This document shows, one piece after another, positions 2 to 21,104 of a stretch of 62,808 nt of DNA. The number at the start of each line of letters is the position of its first letter. The stretch's first letter is position 1. The translations under genes and the position numbers were made by a program. The notes below the pieces were generated by a model. It saw only the letters and a program-made list of their open reading frames with translations, made no database searches and was not told where the DNA came from. The stretch covers positions 1-62,808 of the forward strand of contig SPJM01000343.1 of the NCBI GenBank assembly GCA_006844585.1, given 5' to 3'. Source of the DNA: Methylococcaceae bacterium. GTDB taxonomy: Bacteria > Pseudomonadota > Gammaproteobacteria > Methylococcales > Methylomonadaceae.

Positions 2-3000
2 ATCGATAATCCCGGCCTTGGGTCAGTCCGCAAAGTGCGCATTGTCGCAATCGGCGGCATTTTGTTTAATGCTTTGTCGGTGATGGCTTGTTTGTGGATA
101 TGGATGGGGTTTCCGGATTTAATTCCCGCTCTGCAATTGCTTATTGTTCTTTTTTCGGCGTCGGCTTTGGCGGCCATGTTTTCAGTACCGGATGTATTGG
201 CTTTTGTGCGAGGGAATACCGTCGCTTGGGCATGCGGTCCGGCATTTGCGGTGCGTTATAAATTGTCCGCTAAGGATTTGAATGATGACAGTTTAGTTTC
301 GGAGCGGCTGCAAAATTCAATTGAAATTCTCGCTAGAGAAGCTTCTACCAGAGGCGGACAATCAGCCGGTGTTGCTTTTATGGTCAAAAAAGCGGGCGCT
401 TTATCGATTATTTTCGATAAGGTGGTTAAAGGCAAACGCGAAGATATTGTTAAAGTCCTTAAGAAAAGTATGCTGGATTTAGTCGCTAAGGCGAAGCGGG
501 AAGGGGTTAAAAAAAGCGCCGAATTCGAAGTGACAATGTTGCATTTACGTTATGCGACCGGCGGAGCGACGCATTGGCATAACGCCCAGCCGCATTGGTA
601 TGAATATTATGATTCGATGATGTTTCATAAGGTGGAAGGCGGCGAATTGATCAGTCAAGCGGGCGAGGTGTTCAATCTGATTGCGCATAATGGCGATATG
701 GATGGGGTTCATCTGGATATTTTATTGGATGAGAATATTGAACGACGGTTTTTCAGTCAGCCGGAAGCGCGGGTTATTTTTCAGACCGCGATGCCCAGTT
801 CAACTTCCGTCGGCGATTCCGATTCGCGCAGTATTGCCGAGTGGGTTGATTTACATTTAACTCGGGGGTTGGCGTATAAGGCCTTGCGATACGCTTATTT
901 GAGCAGCGCCTTGGATTTTAACGAAGATTTGGCGACCGGTCGTTTTGACTTTTCGGTCTTGTATCAATGGGCGGAACAAGTTGATTATGTATTGTTGAAT
1001 GCTAAAAACGCTGACCCTTCCAGTTACCTGAAAGAGAATGCCGAATCGATTAATGATTTGCATGATCAAGTAAAGGCGCAGGTGTTGGAAGCTTTGAGCA
1101 AGGAATGCGCTTCGGCAATTCCTAAACAGCGTTTATCGCGCTTTTTGAATGTGTTTGAGCAAGCATTTTACCGCCATGATTTAACCTGGGTAATGCGGCA
1201 GGCATCCAGAAACTTAGTGGGTGAATTTGCTTTGATGGCCTGCTCCACCACTGAAAAACGGATGGGCGTTTTTTCCTTAACCCAGGCGTTCTCCATCGGC
1301 CACAATCGCAGCACAGGTGAGATTTTCGGCAGCGCCGAGCCGCAAGGTGTGACTTCATCACTACACAGCGGCGATGCTGACGATGATGCTTTACAAATCA
1401 ATCTGCAAGACGGCCAGTATGCAACGATTGATTTCGCTGCTAAACCGGGCGTTGATCCGATAGCCATTTATGACCGGGTTCGGGAAGCCGATGATTTCTC
1501 CAAACCGGCTTTAATCGCTGAAGGTTGTGCGATTGATGATCTTCAATCGGAGTGGTTTCCGGTTAATCATAATCCGAAAATCGATAAAACGACTCGTCAG
1601 GATTTACCCGGTGAAGAAATCAATCGCGACTTGAAAGATATTCCGTATATTTTGAAGCGGGTAGTTGATTCCTTTAAACCTGGTGGCGAAAACCAGCAAA
1701 CGATGAACCATTTTAGCCGTTTATTGTTTGATAATTTAGCGGATGCAGGACGTAACCCCAAAAAGTATGATTTGGTGCTTTATGGCGTGGATTTTAACCA
1801 GGATCTTATTAACGAATTTAGTTTGGCTTTGGTGTCGGTTTTGCCGGATTTGAAGGTGAGGGCGGAAAATTCCGGTAATGTGTTGAAAGAGATGAAACGC
1901 ACTCAGCGTGAAGGAATCGGCGGTTATGGACCCAAAACCATTTTTCTGGGGGTGAGTAATTCAGCGCAGACCCAATCCACCTTGGCGGTGACCCGGAAGG
2001 CGGTTGAAATGGTCGGCGGCGAACGTTCTTTCGTATTGTCGCAAAGCTTCCTAAACTCAATGACTCAAGCCGTTAATCAGGGCTATCATCCTGAAGACCC
2101 GGTTTTGCCTAATACCTTTATCAACCTGAGCCATTTTTCGCCTGACGGCAGTTGCGGCAGACGACGTTCGGAAGCGGCGACGATTGTGCCGGTCGCCACC
2201 CAGGCGGTGTTAACCGAAATTTTAATACACTTATTAAATAATGCTTTGTTGCAAAGACCGGCGCTTTGTCATCAAGATGGCGAAGCCAAACATTTTGAAA
2301 TCCGCCATGATATACAAATGGCGGATGTGTTGGCTTTTAGGGAGTTTCAAACGGCGGTTTACGATGTGGAAATCGCCAATCGAGTGGGTTTTAATGCGGC
2401 AGGGGAGACTATTAATTCCCCTGATACCGAGACTGTTGAGAAAGAAGCACAGGCGCGCGCTGAAAATCAAATCGAATTTATTCGCTCATACGCCTTATTC
2501 GCCAGTTATATTGTGATAGCCACTTTATTCGGCATTCCTGTTTTTCATTTATTAACCGTTCCCATCCAGAATGTCGTCGGTATCAGTTTTTTCGCATCTA
2601 TATTGGATGCGGCGTTATTTTTATGTGCTTTATGGCTGATTCATATGGGCCTGCGCTATGGGCAAGGGCGGCCGGTTTTAGAACGCATCGGCGCAAGGGC
2701 GGAGTTATATATAGATCGAAAATACATTGCCCGAATGGTGGAGCGTTACAACGCCACTTTATTTTCCAATGCGCCGGCTTTTTTAACGCCTTATTTTTAT
2801 TGGGCGGATACCGTGCAGGACGCTTTGCATCGTTTCGGCATTCGCGCCCATCGCGGTGTGGTTACCATTCACCGCACTCCGGATGAGCGAATGGGGATAG
2901 AAGAGGCCAACAATGCGGCGGAAGAAAACATGGTCTTTGCCCAGATCGGCGGTATTCGCTTTAATTGCGGGCAGCCGCAATCGCGCGATAAAGTCAGGGA

Positions 3001-3784
3001 AAATTCTCATTTCATGAATCGCTGTGAACAAGACGTTCAAGCCCGCCCTTATCAATCGGTGTTGACCGACAGTTTAGAAGCGTTAAGACAAAAATATGAT
3101 CAGAAACTATCGCCCGAGACTTTGCGGTTGATTAATAGGCGTTTAATCGATTTGTCGGACGGCATCATTTTTGAATTTGTAGTCGGCGCTCAACGCCGGG
3201 ATATTATTAATCAAGCGTTGTGGAAAATGATTGACTGGGCGCCCGGCGCAGAGGCGGTTTATCGGTTGGTCGCTTATTACGGCGTCGATATGAAAAATGT
3301 TATCGGTGATGCCGATACCGCCAATCAGGCGCAAATTCAATCCACTAAACACCCGGTTTCGCCGATGGACATCAATATCGACACCTTAGCGCCCAGGCCG
3401 ACTATCGATGCGCTGATCAGTCAGGAGAAAATTGAAGAAGATCAGTCTTTTGCGGTATTGGTGTTTTTTGAACACTGTCTATGCATTAATTTAAACGAAC
3501 ATTCTTTTGCTCATCAGGGGGTTAACGCCGCTGCTGAAATATTGTTGTTTCCAGGCGTAGGCGTAGATCAAGGGAAATTGGTCAGCGCGCATGAGGGCGA
3601 AGCGAAAGAACGCTTTGTCGCAGAAATATCACGGTCGAACGGCAAGGATATGTTGAGCGTCAACAACCTGAACAGTCCTTTTCAGATCACAATTCCTTTA
3701 TCCAGTCTCCATTCCGATCAGCTTTACCATTTGCTTTATCGTTTGGAAATGGATTCGCAGAGTCATTTGTCGGTGGCTGCGTAA
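2..3784 (+). CDS. Membrane-anchored GlmS-like protein: class II glutamine amidotransferase plus SIS domain (5' end outside window)
   Basis: The frame is open to the left edge. The first usable start is a GTG at 35 without a clear ribosome site, so the true start is probably upstream. Numbering from that GTG: hydrophobic segments at about 4-25 and 30-50, then Cys67-Gly, RGGQSAG (106-112), HLRYATGG (170-177), NAQPH (183-187), AHNGD (217-221) and DSDSR (261-265). These correspond in order to the class II (Ntn) glutaminase motifs of GlmS and PurF. Residues about 579-735 resemble the first sugar-isomerase (SIS) domain, with SNSAQT (641-646) in the place of the GlmS phosphate loop SQSGET. Two more membrane segments follow (about 819-840 and 850-872), then about 375 residues I cannot assign. 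Normal GlmS is about 610 residues, soluble, and starts at the catalytic Cys. Here the Cys follows a membrane leader, so it would need processing or is inactive. First gene of a three-gene operon. Confidence 0.75.
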   Translation: MDNPGLGSVRKVRIVAIGGILFNALSVMACLWIWMGFPDLIPALQLLIVLFSASALAAMFSVPDVLAFVRGNTVAWACGPAFAVRYKLSAKDLNDDSLVSERLQNSIEILAREASTRGGQSAGVAFMVKKAGALSIIFDKVVKGKREDIVKVLKKSMLDLVAKAKREGVKKSAEFEVTMLHLRYATGGATHWHNAQPHWYEYYDSMMFHKVEGGELISQAGEVFNLIAHNGDMDGVHLDILLDENIERRFFSQPEARVIFQTAMPSSTSVGDSDSRSIAEWVDLHLTRGLAYKALRYAYLSSALDFNEDLATGRFDFSVLYQWAEQVDYVLLNAKNADPSSYLKENAESINDLHDQVKAQVLEALSKECASAIPKQRLSRFLNVFEQAFYRHDLTWVMRQASRNLVGEFALMACSTTEKRMGVFSLTQAFSIGHNRSTGEIFGSAEPQGVTSSLHSGDADDDALQINLQDGQYATIDFAAKPGVDPIAIYDRVREADDFSKPALIAEGCAIDDLQSEWFPVNHNPKIDKTTRQDLPGEEINRDLKDIPYILKRVVDSFKPGGENQQTMNHFSRLLFDNLADAGRNPKKYDLVLYGVDFNQDLINEFSLALVSVLPDLKVRAENSGNVLKEMKRTQREGIGGYGPKTIFLGVSNSAQTQSTLAVTRKAVEMVGGERSFVLSQSFLNSMTQAVNQGYHPEDPVLPNTFINLSHFSPDGSCGRRRSEAATIVPVATQAVLTEILIHLLNNALLQRPALCHQDGEAKHFEIRHDIQMADVLAFREFQTAVYDVEIANRVGFNAAGETINSPDTETVEKEAQARAENQIEFIRSYALFASYIVIATLFGIPVFHLLTVPIQNVVGISFFASILDAALFLCALWLIHMGLRYGQGRPVLERIGARAELYIDRKYIARMVERYNATLFSNAPAFLTPYFYWADTVQDALHRFGIRAHRGVVTIHRTPDERMGIEEANNAAEENMVFAQIGGIRFNCGQPQSRDKVRENSHFMNRCEQDVQARPYQSVLTDSLEALRQKYDQKLSPETLRLINRRLIDLSDGIIFEFVVGAQRRDIINQALWKMIDWAPGAEAVYRLVAYYGVDMKNVIGDADTANQAQIQSTKHPVSPMDINIDTLAPRPTIDALISQEKIEEDQSFAVLVFFEHCLCINLNEHSFAHQGVNAAAEILLFPGVGVDQGKLVSAHEGEAKERFVAEISRSNGKDMLSVNNLNSPFQITIPLSSLHSDQLYHLLYRLEMDSQSHLSVAA

Positions 3785-3800: not shown

Positions 3801-6272
3801 ATGATTTTAACGATTTTTACAGTATTGGCGTTCAGCGTTTTATTGATTGTTTTTTATTATAAAAGTAAAACCAAGCAAGAATTATTTATCAGCAATTTCA
3901 TTTATTACGCTTTGCTGTTTATTTCAGCAATGGTGTTGATGTCGCAATTCGCCGGTTCCGATTGGCCGGCTACCATACAAGTCAGCGCTTTTGTTTTTAT
4001 TATGGTGTTTTGGCAATGGCAGACCTTGAAATCCTCGTTTTGGGGAGTGGTGTTTTTTCAAGCCTGCTTTATGGCGCATCTTTTTATCGGCGGTTATTTA
4101 TACAGCGCGACTCAGATTCCCTATGTCGATGAGCCTTTTCGGGAAATCTCCAATAACCAGCCGCATGAACTAGAGCCGGGCAATTTTCCTCATCATTGGG
4201 TCACCGGGCTGCCGCGTGAATCGTACAATTCTGAACTTGATTATGCGGCTGTTGATGCGTCCCATAACGATGTTAGTACGCAGCTTAATGAGGCGACGCA
4301 GCAGCAGTCTCACGCGGATTGGGCGGCAGCCTTGCGCTGGGAAAAATTAGCGCCGTTAATGAGAAAGGATTCGCAAATCAGAACCGTATTGCAAAATTTA
4401 AAAGAGGCTCAGCAACGTGAGCTATCGGATATGTTAGCGCGGTTGAATGCCGATTCGGTTGCCAGCACGCGCATGCGGCGCAAGGCTTTAAGTCGGCGTC
4501 AAATCCAAAACTTGTTGAATGAACGGGCGATTTCGCAAAGCTATTTTCGCACCATTAATGAAACCTGGCGCTTGTTGGATGTGGATGAGCGCAACTTTAG
4601 ACAACGTCAATACGAAGATCGTTTTCATGTCTTGCTGGAGTTGATGGAGGATGAAAAAATCGATGAAAGTCACCGGGTTGAATTCATTGATTTTATGGTG
4701 GCGCATTTTGCCGGCGATGTGCGTTTAATTAAGCCCTTGATTAGCCTTTACGATCATCTGGATGAGGCCTATCCCCGCCAAAAACGGCAAAACAAGGCCT
4801 TTCTGGATCTTTATGTGGCGCGCTGTAAGGCTTTATTAAACGGTTTCGCCCGTATCGGCGAGCCGGTGATGCAACCTTTATTGGATTATCGGCGGCGGAC
4901 GGTTTCGGAAATTCATTATTCCCAAGCCCGGCTGGATAAGTTTATTGAACAACAATTCGGGGTTAAGCCGCCGGTTTTGTATCAACCCGCCGAGCCGCAA
5001 TCAATTGCGGATTTCCTAAATCGCCGCAAATACCCGATTGCGGAAAAATTAACCGGCGCTTCATTTAAGCAAGATTATATTCGCCGCAATCTGATGCAGA
5101 TGATGATCAAGAATATTCCGCCCAAATTTGATCAGCCGGTGATGAACGCTTCTGAACAACTGTTTCAACAAATCAAAAGTCATTTCGAGCGGGCCGGTTT
5201 TGATGATGCGGTGGATTATTTATTAGTTGATGCTGATCCGGCGGTGCGGGGTAATTTGGCTTGGTATCTGGCGGAGCGTAAAGACCCTTATCTAGTCCCG
5301 TTAGTATTTGAATTGATGCGCGATCCGAATCCGGAAGTGCGCCGGATGGCGGCCATTGCGGCGGGTAATTTTGTGATTCGCGATACCCAAGGGGCGAGCG
5401 ACCCTAAGTTTATTGAAATCGTCAAAATGTTGCAAAATTACCGCAGTAATTCCGATGCCTTTGGACGGGCGTGGGCCTTATTCTCATTATCCAATATCGC
5501 TGATCAGCAAAAAGCGCTTTATATCGTAGATTTAATTTTAAATGACGGCGAAGGTTATCATTCCGGTTTAGGCGCTGCGGCGCCAACCTGGCGCAGCGAG
5601 GAAGAGCGGCATGTTGTTCACAGTTTAATCGAAACCTTGTCTAAAACACCGGAAGAATTGCTGGTGAAAACGTATGCGCTGAATACCTTGATTGCTTTGA
5701 ACTCGCCGGAATCCTTGGGTATTTTGCTGCAATATTTACATCATATTTATGATAAACATCATACGCGTCCGAGTATGTGGCGCTATTTCATGCCGCATAT
5801 GACGTTGCCGCAAGAGGCTGAGAACGTAGAGGACGTGGTGGTGTATTTTGCAAAAGTAAATGAAGGCAGTTCTCAAGAGACGCATACCCGGCATTTGAAA
5901 GCGATTAATGAGTTTTTGCGTAAAGCTTATGAGGCGGATAGAAGCGGTGAGTATTTTCAAATATTACGGTTTTTAAAAGTCTATAACCCTTCGGATTATG
6001 AATCTTATTTGCTGGAAAACGATGAACAAATTCGTATTATGCGGATATGGGAATATTTAACCGCCACCCATTTGTTTTGGATTTTGGCATGGCCTTTTTG
6101 CCTGGTCGGCATGTTGATTATTATTTATATTGTTTTTCCGTTTTTGAATCTATCTGCGCCGAAACGCGCCCAGAAACCGAATGACAGGTCGAACCCGGCG
6201 GCGGATTTCCGTAAACAAAAAATGACCCCCGCTTCGACCATCGTGCCGGTTAAAATAGTGAATAAGAAATAG
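3801..6272 (+). CDS. HEAT-repeat membrane protein of unknown function
   Basis: An 823-residue protein starting 16 bases after the GlmS-like gene. It has about four N-terminal membrane segments (roughly 1-20, 29-51, 58-73 and 79-101), a long helical middle and one C-terminal membrane segment near 755-782 followed by a basic tail. Around 460-640 there are HEAT-type helical repeats with the usual Pro-x-x-Arg pattern, for example DADPAVRGNLAWYL and DPNPEVRRMAAIAAG. No catalytic motif is visible. HEAT repeats usually act as protein-binding scaffolds, so this may be the adaptor between the GlmS-like protein and other envelope parts; that is inference. The ribosome site before the ATG is weak (GGGG about 10 bases upstream). 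Its place between the other two genes suggests a dedicated three-part system. Confidence 0.7.
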   Translation: MILTIFTVLAFSVLLIVFYYKSKTKQELFISNFIYYALLFISAMVLMSQFAGSDWPATIQVSAFVFIMVFWQWQTLKSSFWGVVFFQACFMAHLFIGGYLYSATQIPYVDEPFREISNNQPHELEPGNFPHHWVTGLPRESYNSELDYAAVDASHNDVSTQLNEATQQQSHADWAAALRWEKLAPLMRKDSQIRTVLQNLKEAQQRELSDMLARLNADSVASTRMRRKALSRRQIQNLLNERAISQSYFRTINETWRLLDVDERNFRQRQYEDRFHVLLELMEDEKIDESHRVEFIDFMVAHFAGDVRLIKPLISLYDHLDEAYPRQKRQNKAFLDLYVARCKALLNGFARIGEPVMQPLLDYRRRTVSEIHYSQARLDKFIEQQFGVKPPVLYQPAEPQSIADFLNRRKYPIAEKLTGASFKQDYIRRNLMQMMIKNIPPKFDQPVMNASEQLFQQIKSHFERAGFDDAVDYLLVDADPAVRGNLAWYLAERKDPYLVPLVFELMRDPNPEVRRMAAIAAGNFVIRDTQGASDPKFIEIVKMLQNYRSNSDAFGRAWALFSLSNIADQQKALYIVDLILNDGEGYHSGLGAAAPTWRSEEERHVVHSLIETLSKTPEELLVKTYALNTLIALNSPESLGILLQYLHHIYDKHHTRPSMWRYFMPHMTLPQEAENVEDVVVYFAKVNEGSSQETHTRHLKAINEFLRKAYEADRSGEYFQILRFLKVYNPSDYESYLLENDEQIRIMRIWEYLTATHLFWILAWPFCLVGMLIIIYIVFPFLNLSAPKRAQKPNDRSNPAADFRKQKMTPASTIVPVKIVNKK

Positions 6273-6277
6273 GGGGG

Positions 6278-7819
6278 ATGATGTTGTTTATCACGGCTTT
6301 AAAAACGCGGGTGAAGCTATTATTCATCGTTTTGTTCGGCTTGTTGTTGAACGCATGTACGCTTATCGGTCCGGATTTTGAGAAACCGGAACTCGGGTTG
6401 GATGAACAATGGTTAGCGGATTACCGGGAGACTTTTAAAAGCGGTGATGCGACAAAGTGGTGGGAAGTATTTAATGACCCTGTGTTAAACCAACTGATCA
6501 ATTTAGCGCATCAACAAAACCTGGATCTGCAAACGGTGGCGATTCGCATCTTGGAGGCCAGGGCGCAATTAGGCATCGCCAGAGGCAGTTTGTTTCCGCA
6601 AAGCCAAACCTTGGAAACTGGCTTGGCTTTTCATAAACTCAGCGAGCGTTCTCCTAATTTCGATCCATCGTTTGATGATCCCGATTTTGTCGCTTTTGAT
6701 ATGGGTTTCGACGCCCTCTGGGAATTGGATGTGTGGGGGCGTTTTCGCCGCGGCATAGAATCAGCCAACGCCAAATTAGCGGTTTCGGCAGCGGAATATG
6801 ACGATATGCTGGTCAGTTTAACCGCCGAGGTCGCGGTCAGCTATGTGCAAATCTGTGCTTTTAAGCAACGTTTGCAAGTGGCGCTTGAAAATGCGCAGAT
6901 TCAAAAGGACAGTGTCAGGATTACCGAAGTCAGGGTGCGGGAAGGCATCAGCACTGAACTGGATATGCAACAGGCGCGGGCTTTGTTGCATAGCACGCTG
7001 GCCTTGATTACTCGTTTGCAAACCGGGTTGCGCCACGCTAAAAACGGCTTGGCGGTATTATTAGGCCGGTTTCCAGGGCAGATTGATCGTTTCTTGGATG
7101 ATCAAATGACGATTCCGCAGGCTTCAAAAGCGATTGTATTGGATATACCTGTGAATATGTTAAGACGCCGCCCGGATGTGCGTAAAGCCGAATATAACGC
7201 CGCTGCGCAAAGCGCTTTGATCGGGGTGGCGAAGGCGGATTTACTGCCGCGTTTCACCTTGCGCGGCGCTTTGGGGTTGAATTCCAGCAGTTCCGGCGCG
7301 ATTGATATATTCGATGTGTTCGATATGAAAAGTCTGGCGGCGACTATCGGGCCGACGGTGAGTTGGCCGATTTTAAATTACGGGCGTTTGAAAAATAATG
7401 TTCGCGTTCAAGACGCCCGTTTTGAGCAGGCGTTTATGCAATACCGGCAAACTGTGTTGACCGCCGTGCGCGAAGTGGAGGACGCCATGATTGCTTTCGT
7501 TAATAGCGGTCGCCGGGTTGAGCATCTACAACGCGGAGTTCAGGCTTCCGGGCGTTCTGTGGATTTAGCGCTGGCTCAATACCGAAGCGGTTTGGAAGAT
7601 TACACCCGGGTATTGGATTCGCAGCAGTTTTTAGTTCAGCAACAAGATGCTTTAATTTCCGGACAAGGCGATTATGTGAAAAATATTATCGCCGTTTATA
7701 AGGCCTTGGGCGGCGGTTGGGAAATTCGTGAAAATCAAAATATCTTTCCGCAAAAGGCCTTGCAACGAATGCAGCAACGGGTGGATTGGGAGGACTTTGT
7801 TAATGACGAGGGTTCATGA
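6278..7819 (+). CDS. Outer-membrane efflux lipoprotein, NodT/OprM (TolC-like) family
   Basis: A 513-residue protein with a lipoprotein signal: basic start, hydrophobic stretch, then LLNAC with Cys27 as lipidation site. The mature part begins IGPDFEKP, the typical NodT/OprM opening, and contains two copies of the outer-membrane efflux domain, including ALWELDVWGRFRRG, the repeated LRRRPDVRKAE region and SWPILNYGRLKNN. The family forms trimeric outer-membrane ducts that work with an inner-membrane pump and a periplasmic adaptor. Neither partner is in the window; they could lie upstream of the left edge. A run of Gs overlaps the previous stop codon and precedes two ATGs (6278 and 6281); the second has better spacing. 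The gene ends just before a REP-like hairpin. Confidence 0.88.
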   Translation: MMLFITALKTRVKLLFIVLFGLLLNACTLIGPDFEKPELGLDEQWLADYRETFKSGDATKWWEVFNDPVLNQLINLAHQQNLDLQTVAIRILEARAQLGIARGSLFPQSQTLETGLAFHKLSERSPNFDPSFDDPDFVAFDMGFDALWELDVWGRFRRGIESANAKLAVSAAEYDDMLVSLTAEVAVSYVQICAFKQRLQVALENAQIQKDSVRITEVRVREGISTELDMQQARALLHSTLALITRLQTGLRHAKNGLAVLLGRFPGQIDRFLDDQMTIPQASKAIVLDIPVNMLRRRPDVRKAEYNAAAQSALIGVAKADLLPRFTLRGALGLNSSSSGAIDIFDVFDMKSLAATIGPTVSWPILNYGRLKNNVRVQDARFEQAFMQYRQTVLTAVREVEDAMIAFVNSGRRVEHLQRGVQASGRSVDLALAQYRSGLEDYTRVLDSQQFLVQQQDALISGQGDYVKNIIAVYKALGGGWEIRENQNIFPQKALQRMQQRVDWEDFVNDEGS

Positions 7820-18717: not shown

Positions 18718-19131
18718 TCAACAATAAATTTGATAAAGCCCTTCCAGCACTAAAGAATTAGGGCTGATTGTGCCGAGGAGGTTGTCATCCTTGTCGATTA
18801 CCGGGGCTCGCACCAGATTATAGGTGTCGAAAAGTCTGGAACAAAGTCGGATGTCCATTTCCGGGTTTACCTTGACGACCGGGCAGGTCATGATTTCATA
18901 AACATTAACCCGGTCCGGGGAACGGTCTTTGGAGAGTACGTCGCGGGCGATGTCGGTGGAGGTGATGATGCCGTATTCGTCGTCTTCATGTCTTTTTTTG
19001 ACGATTAATACCGATGTTTTGTTGTTTTTCATGCTCATTAAGGCTTCGCGTATGGTCGCCGCGCCGTCAATTACGGTATAGCCTGCTTTCATCACATCCT
19101 TAACGCGAACAACTTTGTTTTTAGCGCTCAT
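18718..19131 (-). CDS. CBS-domain pair protein
   Basis: A 137-residue protein made almost entirely of two CBS motifs (residues about 8-60 and 70-130), with the pattern VIDGAATIREALMSM and GIITSTDIARDVL. CBS pairs bind adenine nucleotides such as AMP, ATP or SAM, and regulate partner proteins. It is the last gene of an operon with a PII-like protein and two DUF1538 membrane proteins, and overlaps the PII-like gene by four bases. The likely role is adenylate sensing for the DUF1538 proteins; this is inferred from context. Confidence 0.88.
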   Translation of the reverse strand: MSAKNKVVRVKDVMKAGYTVIDGAATIREALMSMKNNKTSVLIVKKRHEDDEYGIITSTDIARDVLSKDRSPDRVNVYEIMTCPVVKVNPEMDIRLCSRLFDTYNLVRAPVIDKDDNLLGTISPNSLVLEGLYQIYC

Positions 19132-19478
19132 ACTTCATCCTCCAATTCATTAGTCAGTTCATCTACCTGGTGCATCAGGCCGATAGCGTCTTCTACATCC
19201 ACTTGAAAGGCGATGCCGGTGCCGGGCTTGCTGTCGAATTCGCCGGCTTTGGCGATTTTTTCAAGTATGCTACGGCTTAAGTGTTCTTCAACCAGGAATA
19301 AGGCGACATCGCGCTGGGTTTCCAGAGTCAAGCCGAAAAAAGTTTTGGATTGATTGATGCCTTCGCCGCGGGCGCTGGTGATGACGGTGGCGCCTTTAGC
19401 GCCATACTCGCGCGCGGTATCCAGCACCAGATCGGTTTTAGAATCTTCTACAAATGCAATAAGTAGCTTGAAATGCAT
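19128..19478 (-). CDS. PII-like (GlnB-family) regulatory protein
   Basis: A 116-residue protein of the size of a PII signal protein. It opens with the ferredoxin-like strand MHFKLLIAFVEDSKTD and continues with GAKGATVITSARGEG, the position of the flexible T-loop in PII proteins, then a DVALFLVEEHLSRSILEKI segment. The uridylylation Tyr of GlnB is not evident. PII-like proteins of this kind usually bind nucleotides and gate a membrane protein encoded next to them. Here the partners would be the two DUF1538 proteins just upstream (8-base gap). Confidence 0.8.
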   Translation of the reverse strand: MHFKLLIAFVEDSKTDLVLDTAREYGAKGATVITSARGEGINQSKTFFGLTLETQRDVALFLVEEHLSRSILEKIAKAGEFDSKPGTGIAFQVDVEDAIGLMHQVDELTNELEDEV

Positions 19479-19486
19479 TGTTTACC

Positions 19487-20266
19487 TCAGTGTCGATTGT
19501 TGTGTTTGCTGCGCCATTCAGAGATTTGCGCATAGCCTAATACGGCGATAATAGGGAACAGGCTGGCGAAAGCGATGAGTCCGAAGCCGTCCAATAAGGG
19601 GTTGCGGCCGGGTACGGTTGAAGCCAACCCCAAACCCAGCGCGGTAACCAATGGTACGGTGACGGTCGACGTGGTAACGCCGCCGGAATCATATGCCAAC
19701 CCGATAATCAATTTTGGCGCAAAAGCAGTTTGAATAATGACGATTATATATCCGGCGATAATGTAATAATAGAGTTCGGTGCCGCTGACGATGCGGTAAG
19801 CGCCCAGCGCGATGCCGAAAGCAACGCCGATTGAAACGGAAATGCGCAGTCCCCAGGCGTTGATGGCGCCGCCGGAAATGGTTTCGGCTTTGATGGCGAC
19901 AGCCAATAACGAAGGTTCAGCCAGAGTGGTGGCGAATCCGATGCAGGCGGCGAATAGATAGACCCAGGCGTAATCTTGCCAATGCACGTTAGCGGCTTCG
20001 CTAATGCCTAAAAATTCCGGCGCGGTTAATTGTTTAGCCATTAAATCGCCGAGCGGAAATAAGGCGAGTTGCAAGCCTTCCAAAAAAAAAGCAATGCCGA
20101 ATAACACATAAACAAAGCCGAGAGAGGTTCTGATCGGATTGGGTAAGGGTTTGCGAATAACCAATAGCTGGAAGCCGATAATGATGACGACGATCGGTAA
20201 TATATCTTTAGCGGTCGCCAAGACAGTGTGTAAAAACAATTCCAGCCAATCCATTAAGGCGTTCAT
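19487..20266 (-). CDS. DUF1538 multi-spanning membrane protein, second copy
   Basis: A 259-residue polytopic membrane protein. It shares with its upstream neighbour a conserved stretch near the C-terminus: [20 protein letters not shown], then GRNP and [11 protein letters not shown]. Function unknown; the TS-rich motif between helices and the regulator genes alongside suggest a transporter or channel. It overlaps the first copy by four bases (ATGA). The two copies differ clearly over the rest of their length, so they may form a heterodimer rather than being a recent duplication. Confidence 0.85.
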
Positions 20267-20997
20267 TGCAGCATTCCATAGATCATCACGAAAATCATCG
20301 GCGTCAGCGATGCGAAAGCAATTAAGCCGAAGCCGTCTACCATCGGGTTGCGGCCTTTAATGGAGTTTGCCAAACCCACGCCCAAAGCCGTTACCAGCGG
20401 GACGGTAATGGTGGAGGTGGTGACGCCGCCGGAATCATAGGCGATGCCGATTATTTCTGCGGGAGCGAAAGGGGTGATGGCTAATACGCAACAATAACCG
20501 CTAATAATTAAATAATGTAGCGGCCAGCCTTTTAAGATGCGCAGTACGCCCATGACGATGGCGAAACCCACTGATGCGGCGACGGTAATGCGCAGACCCA
20601 GCGCATAGTTCTGTTTAGCGGTTTGACCGGCTTCTATAATGGCGGCTTTACCGGCGATGTCGGCCGCCTCGTCGGCGACGGCAATCAATGCCGGCTCTGC
20701 GATGGTGGTGCCGAACCCCAGACAAAAGGCGAACGCCATCAACCAGAATAGACTGCCTTTGCGGGCAAAAGCCTGAGCCATAGCTTCGCCGATAGGAAAT
20801 AAGCCCAGTTCCAAGCCTTGAACAAATAGCGTTAAACCCAGGATAACAAATAAACTGCCGATTATCAGATTGAGTAAATCCGGGATAGGTTGTTTGATCA
20901 CCCATAATTGGAAAATAATGACCACTATTAATATGGGTGCCAGGTCGGTAGTGCTGCGGTATATTTGTTTGATAAATGGATTATTGAATAACCACAT
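20263..20997 (-). CDS. DUF1538 multi-spanning membrane protein, first copy
   Basis: About 244 residues, with the same DUF1538 core as its partner ([37 protein letters not shown]). The start is taken as the ATG at 20997 (MWLFNN), with GGA six bases upstream; a TTG at 21015 would add six residues. First gene of the operon DUF1538 - DUF1538 - PII-like - CBS. The four genes are separated by overlaps or fewer than 10 bases, so they are almost certainly co-transcribed. A membrane pair controlled by a nucleotide-binding PII-like and a CBS protein is the simplest reading. Confidence 0.85.
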
Positions 20998-21104
20998 GAA
21001 AGATCCGGGTTGCAAAATGCATAGGTTTAAAGTCTAGCATATTTCCAATGAATTCTATTGTCGATTGTTTGATTTTTCCTTAGCGGAAGATTTAAGGATA
21101 ATCA

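Follow-up and report, generated by a model that had tools for sequence, protein, structure and literature searches.

The stretch of DNA analysed here (the window, 62,808 nucleotides) comprises bases 1-62808 of contig C272 (SPJM01000343.1) in a 3.68 Mb assembly of 376 contigs from a Methylococcaceae bacterium. The first gene of the window encodes a membrane-anchored protein with a GlmS-like glutaminase domain and an SIS domain, in which a Cys stands at the catalytic place inside the chain, as an initial annotation had proposed from the DNA alone and as the present analysis supports. Based on sequence, a structural model and analogy, we hold with about even confidence that the protein may be a nitrogen-linked, membrane-bound amidotransferase, the Cys of which would be freed by self-cleavage between Ala77 and Cys78, as in PurF. 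The features of the gene and its surroundings are presented in Table 1.

In the proposed working, the protein would be an inner-membrane, cytoplasm-facing enzyme of class II (N-terminal nucleophile, Ntn), built of a glutaminase, a first SIS half (SIS1), a transmembrane hairpin, a second SIS-like half and a C-terminal extra. A three-helix domain resembling site-2 proteases, the catalytic Glu of which is lost in the close family, would precede the Cys. The chain would cut itself at Ala77-Cys78 and free the Cys; the protease-like domain would then be a separate membrane piece, and the hairpin would keep the enzyme on the membrane. Glutamine would be hydrolysed, and a phosphorylated ligand located in the SIS half would receive the ammonia. 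The enzyme could form an envelope-spanning unit with a HEAT protein, predicted to be periplasmic, and a NodT channel, and this unit may be tied to nitrogen status through PII and AmtB. Hydropathy and charge are consistent with a cytoplasmic location of the glutaminase, SIS and C-terminal parts and with a periplasmic HEAT domain.

The open frame and every motif quoted in the initial annotation are present at the 5' end of the window. Alignment A1 contains 12 sequences, including the 22%-identical L034. Cys78, Arg117, His181, Arg183, Asn230, Gly231 and Asp274 are identical in all of them, and the class II catalytic set (Cys, Arg, Asn-Gly, Asp; presumed roles) is present in order in 12/12. Loss of the Cys and Arg residues in homologues, which would speak against such a domain, was looked for: C78, R117 and R183 are kept in 12/12 aligned sequences. 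We take Asn230-Gly231-Asp to be the oxyanion-hole motif of class II glutaminases and, from the motif order, Asp274 to stand at the place of the Gln-binding Asp. Two sets were used for profile-profile comparison, 18 GlmS sequences from related genomes and 10 PurF-type sequences. Residues 112-206 match GlmS 21-95 at a probability of 36% and residues 391-492 match GlmS 138-224 at 18%, in the same order, and the alignments to GlmS are collinear and in register; with a single GlmS sequence as the target the match is weaker (about 3-4%). The PurF-type set matches the HLRYATGG...NAQPH block at 55%. Column-shuffled controls of the glutaminase profile never reach the observed score (0/99 against GlmS, 0/99 against PurF, and 0/100 against PurF when the distant L034 is removed). 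When 177,635 distinct PDB sequences were searched with the profile (hmmsearch), two matched at E ≤ 10, both weakly (E 0.25 and 0.26); both are PurF and in register, presumably the B. subtilis enzyme judging from the entry codes. PurF shares the HxRYxTxG...AQP motif and provides the only PDB sequence match; it is a soluble enzyme with a phosphoribosyltransferase domain instead of SIS, and its leader contains no membrane domain.

If an unrelated membrane protein carried these short motifs by chance, this would fit the absence of a Pfam match and the low predicted local distance difference test values (pLDDT) over much of the glutaminase region. However, the motifs are in GlmS order across the homologues, and GFAT and GlmS occupy the top of the structural list. 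Since the motifs are invariant in 12/12 homologues and the scores lie above all shuffles, the resemblance is hardly a product of chance, and we find this explanation barely credible.

Concerning the SIS region, residues 588-671 correspond to GlmS 294-366 at a probability of 52%, and 0/100 shuffles are as good. An AlphaFold2 model was made of residues 1-1200 of the complete relative L024 (the model was cut at 1200); it has an overall pLDDT of 59 and is well modelled in SIS1, with values of 76-88 over residues 631-740. Human GFAT-1 and E. coli GlmS are at or near the top with both Foldseek and VIA and are the best structural matches of the model. In VIA, GFAT-1 (6svm_A) aligns 393 residues at Z 19.3 over model residues 169-1194, and the GFAT/GlmS alignments reach into the Ntn region, though the model there is of low confidence. 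The GlmS isomerase domain 1mos aligns 286 residues (Z 18.4, over 615-1194) and the single-SIS MurR 169 (Z 13.4). Because 1mos aligns far more residues than MurR, a second SIS-like half likely follows the transmembrane hairpin. Hydrophobic segments are also found at the aligned hairpin position in L034. The initial annotation had counted about 375 extra C-terminal residues; about 375 do follow the hairpin, but in this low-confidence model most of them align with the second GlmS isomerase half, and the truly extra ones may perhaps number about 140-150.

Looking at the layout as a whole, the protein shares with GlmS/GFAT the order of glutaminase, SIS1 and probably a second SIS half, with RGxxS, HxRxAT and S-x-S-x-x-T in register. 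It differs from them by two membrane regions, a domain of 170-190 residues before the Cys, long inserts, the C-terminal extra and an altered SIS1 loop. Hydropathy confirms the membrane segments of the initial annotation, which lie ahead of the Cys and at residues 827-885.

The frame runs off the 5' end of the window, which starts at base 1 of the contig. The open frames of complete relatives comprise 1349-1476 residues and extend about 85-110 residues further at the N-terminus than the window protein (first possible start codon, unless far upstream). Judged by this comparison, the window protein lacks roughly 100 N-terminal residues, cut by the contig edge, and its true start is probably other than the GTG at 35; Cys67, as numbered from that GTG, is residue 78 of the frame. 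In complete relatives the Cys is residue 170-187, behind a membrane domain of about 170-190 residues. The leader before the Cys is therefore hydrophobic, as first noted, but is really such a domain, with its start off the contig.

This domain is probably site-2-protease-like and, with the catalytic Glu lost in the close family, a pseudoprotease, as suggested by the alignment and a model. It shares with M50/site-2 proteases a three-helix core, H-x-x-x-H in helix 1, an A-G-x-x-x-N-like pattern in helix 2 and, in helix 3, an Asp that is invariant and stands 14 residues ahead of the Cys. It differs in the fusion to an amidotransferase, in the lack of an LDG motif and in helix 1, which reads HG(F/L/C)GH in 12/13 sequences with the region and HEAGH only in the distant L034; the HExxH of M50 is thus absent from 12/13, with Gly in place of the catalytic Glu. 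The N-terminal form of L034 matches M50 proteins at probabilities of 60 and 71% (0/100 shuffles as good in each), and the pooled N-terminal set at 3.4%, just above all 100 shuffles. The close-family N-terminal alignment alone, compared with small M50 proteins, does not rise above its shuffles (10/100 score as high). Apart from the window's own genome, one protein of the phylum sample was matched by the N-terminal part of the A1 profile (E 0.02); it is a true M50 peptidase carrying both HEAGH and LDG. No match to PF02163 (M50) was found for the window protein, L023 or L034, and the N-terminal alignment profile retrieved from the PDB only a 24-residue piscidin at E 5.6, a chance match.

A separate model of the N-terminal domain has a pLDDT of 85 and a predicted template modelling score of 0.80. 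With this model, the M. jannaschii site-2 protease 3b4r_A is first of 1000 chains in VIA (129 aligned residues, root-mean-square deviation 3.5, model 11-181 on chain 30-206) at Z 6.6, below the level of Z 8-13 that VIA advises for helical models; the next rows have Z 6.0 and 5.7. Foldseek gave nothing under E 0.35, with G-protein-coupled receptors and ferritins first and the site-2 protease not among the best 50 rows. A bolder version of the proposal would have the built-in intramembrane-protease domain itself cut or position Ala77-Cys78, as an active protease in HExxH forms and a docking pseudoprotease in HGxGH forms, giving a membrane zymogen switched by nitrogen status through PII/AmtB and driving an envelope-spanning HEAT/NodT machine; we consider it highly unlikely.

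In class II amidotransferases, the N-terminal Cys must be free. The initial annotation offered two ways out, a leader that is cut off or a sensor without activity. According to PMC7056826, all eukaryotic and many microbial PurF enzymes autocatalytically remove a short propeptide, and recombinant AtGPRAT2 from E. coli had lost its leader, with Cys87 exposed. Self-cleavage in these PurF members takes place before the same Cys as is proposed here. Alternatively, the protein could be an uncleaved glutamine sensor, the Ntn domain of which binds glutamine, with a Cys that serves a structural role or enters a reversible adduct, and which signals to PII/AmtB or to HEAT/NodT. A non-terminal Cys behind a membrane domain, the linkage to PII and ammonium transporter genes and the shortness of the known self-cleaved PurF leaders would suit a sensor. 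MurR and the glucokinase regulatory protein, in which SIS domains also act as ligand sensors, are among the structural matches. Against it, catalytic as well as binding residues are invariant, even at 22% identity, and PurF-type enzymes, as that source describes them, do cleave off their leader. The invariance of the entire catalytic set leads us to favour cleavage over a sensor without activity, which we regard as rather unlikely.

The amidotransferase could also be a membrane-tethered GlmS paralogue that makes an amino-sugar phosphate for a cell-surface polymer, its linkage to PII/AmtB reflecting co-regulation, as amino sugars cost nitrogen. The GlmS-like domain order and fold, the outer-membrane channel encoded in the same gene unit and the presence of an ordinary GlmS (G000:C162) agree with this. 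However, the second SIS half carries no GlmS sequence signal, the SIS1 loop is altered, and no polymer gene is found among the identified shared neighbours (the shared open reading frames (ORFs) cl8-cl11 were not scanned), which leaves the paralogue quite unlikely. Since the ordinary GlmS, and probably also PurF, are found elsewhere in the same genome, the membrane protein need not replace them.

Relatives are present in 13/311 Methylococcales genomes, the window's own included: 12 are close (about 54-63% identity) and one is distant (22-25%). The distant one is L034 (G103:C324), 22% identical overall in the alignment; its host genome has a listed completeness of 83% and contamination of 6%, which leaves the true host of the contig uncertain. 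A profile search of the order returned the same 13/311 genomes, the 12 aligned ones matching by construction. The gene is absent from all five other genomes of the window's genus. The named carriers are Methylobacter (two), Methylococcus capsulatus Texas (L037), Crenothrix polyspora, a Methylococcaceae bacterium and an uncultured proteobacterium. An alignment-based scan of genome contigs found six loci, the same records as G148, G020, G051, G085, G144 and G217; the scan with the single window protein as query found no relative. In the class sample 1/369 genomes is positive, the own genome only. In the phylum sample 86/398 genomes match at E ≤ 0.1; outside the own genome these are short partial matches (the RYAT motif in PurF-size frames, the SIS motif in GlmS-size frames and the one M50 protein), with identity checked for a few only. 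One match of 68 positions, in G582, is unexplained. Coverage outside the phylum consists of the two genome-contig scans, and tblastn against plasmids gave no match for the window protein or L034.

The amidotransferase gene (cl0) is followed after 16 bases by the HEAT gene (cl1), and this after 5 bases by the NodT gene (cl2). The three are together in 12/12 close loci with the downstream side available, and a strong cl1 match is found in 12/311 genomes of the order, exactly those with a close cl0; the 13th cl1 match (G006) is a short, weak HEAT match. Within 12 kb in 10 complete loci, PII is found in 8, an ammonium transporter in 7 and either in 9, where 0.25, 0.22 and 0.47 loci would be expected from gene numbers and rounded genome sizes; the 12-kb limit was chosen after the loci had been seen, 4/10 loci are from one genus and the genomes are not independent. 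PII lies divergently upstream in L022-L024 and downstream of NodT in Methylococcus (L026-L029), and this difference in arrangement between genera argues for a kept link. The identified shared neighbours are PII, the ammonium transporter, a BBP2 porin and an Fe-S protein.

Several results, together with the dependence of the loci just given, weigh against the proposed amidotransferase. The whole protein has no Pfam family at E ≤ 1 and nothing over any NCBIfam cut-off (for NF001484, GlmS, it scores 11.7 bits, below the curated cut-off of 381); the proteins of L023 and L034 likewise match no Pfam family, and phmmer of the protein against the PDB gave no match at E ≤ 1. The profile probabilities, 18-55%, are modest in absolute terms. 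The sugar-phosphate loop of SIS1 reads SNSAQT instead of SQSGET, with ligand residues partly changed, and the second SIS half has no profile match to GlmS. The ten-residue mean pLDDT of the L024 model is 28-64 (residues 171-380), 54-88 (381-490) and 35-58 (491-600), and in the second SIS half 25-51 (981-1110) and 45-70 (1111-1190). The PurF precedent concerns short propeptides, whereas the 170-190 residues ahead of the Cys here form a membrane domain. L034 has no HEAT or NodT gene within its 18 kb, the linkage to PII and the ammonium transporter fails in L033, and it is not visible for the window gene, the upstream side of which is off the contig. The roles of HEAT and NodT are drawn from gene order and hydropathy, and cleavage, glutaminase activity and the acceptor are predictions.

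Table 1. Coordinates of the amidotransferase gene, its putative domains and motifs, and other features of the window
Feature	Position	Strand	Basis or remark
GlmS-like amidotransferase (predicted), membrane-anchored	2..3784	+	5'-truncated at contig edge; 1260 aa present
Helices 2 and 3 of the probable site-2-protease-like membrane domain (helix 1 off contig)	35..208	+	alignment, hydropathy, model
Asp64 codon, expected third-ligand place	191-193	+	alignment
Cys78 codon, putative N-terminal nucleophile, after Ala77	233..235	+	Cys invariant 12/12
RGGQS motif, aligned with GlmS RGYDS	350..364	+	alignment
HLRYATGG (Arg183 invariant), then NAQPH; aligned with GlmS HxRWAT / PurF HVRYxTxG	542..565	+	profile comparison
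Asn230-Gly231-Asp motif	689..697	+	alignment
Asp274, invariant	821..823	+	alignment
Second half of glutaminase domain, collinear with GlmS 138-224	1172..1477	+	profile comparison
First SIS core, collinear with GlmS 294-366; SNSAQT at 1955-1972	1763..2014	+	profile and structural alignment
Transmembrane hairpin between the two SIS halves (residues 827-885)	2480..2656	+	hydropathy
Likely second SIS-like half, end not fixed	2657..3355	+	structural alignment of low-confidence model; no sequence signal
Variable C-terminal region	3419..3781	+	alignment; no profile match
HEAT-repeat protein (cl1), transmembrane segments near both ends	3801..6272	+	PF13646, hydropathy
NodT-type outer-membrane efflux lipoprotein (cl2)	6278..7819	+	TIGR01845
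PII-like ORF	19128-19478	-	PF00543 match 19182-19469

A further N-terminal fragment of the family is found in the same assembly, at L042:1-366 (contig C284). It is cut by a contig edge very near the position homologous to the start of the window, but its sequence differs. C284 was considered as the missing N-terminus of the window gene and rejected, as 10/49 overlapping bases differ (counted by eye); by this comparison the fragment is a second copy (paralogue), or comes from a second strain or a mixed bin. Next to the fragment lie genes for a BBP2 porin and for a small protein that is probably secreted, as well as two amtB genes. A few kb from amtB, L042:5940-12000 contains a long repeat-spacer array with GSLE/LRK tandem peptides in spurious ORFs, which looks like an array of clustered regularly interspaced short palindromic repeats. 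In the homologue at L033:6375-10736, extra residues are inserted in frame at three sites; at two of these the low-complexity peptides look alike and may be small repeats.

A small conserved protein (about 100 aa, two conserved Cys), probably secreted, stands beside amtB or the amidotransferase gene in seven loci (L042:4863-5192, L030:10779-11102, L022, L023, L025, L032 and L033); two copies were scanned and reached no Pfam cut-off. The T-loop of ordinary GlnB/GlnK carries the uridylylation site, and the PII homologues downstream of NodT in L026-L029 show a gap at this loop. In the window itself, a PII-like gene in the region 18718-21015 (-) has a CBS-like ORF on one side and, on the other, two membrane ORFs that look alike by eye.

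Class II amidotransferases are generally known to be soluble, with a Cys at the N-terminus. Judged from their sequences, the known parts described here are joined in a new assembly. The statement of the initial annotation that no described system has this layout agrees with our searches: the searched libraries hold no matching system, and no description of such a protein was found in open-licence papers. The site-2-protease-like leader, the probable second SIS half and the three-gene unit with nitrogen-regulatory neighbours had not been foreseen. In this family the catalytic set is conserved although it follows a membrane domain, and this raises a testable question, namely whether Cys78 is freed and by what, and one carrier is a named strain, Methylococcus capsulatus Texas. 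In methanotrophs, methane monooxygenase can turn ammonia into toxic hydroxylamine, as stated in PMC5623727. The family points to a nitrogen-linked envelope system in these bacteria.

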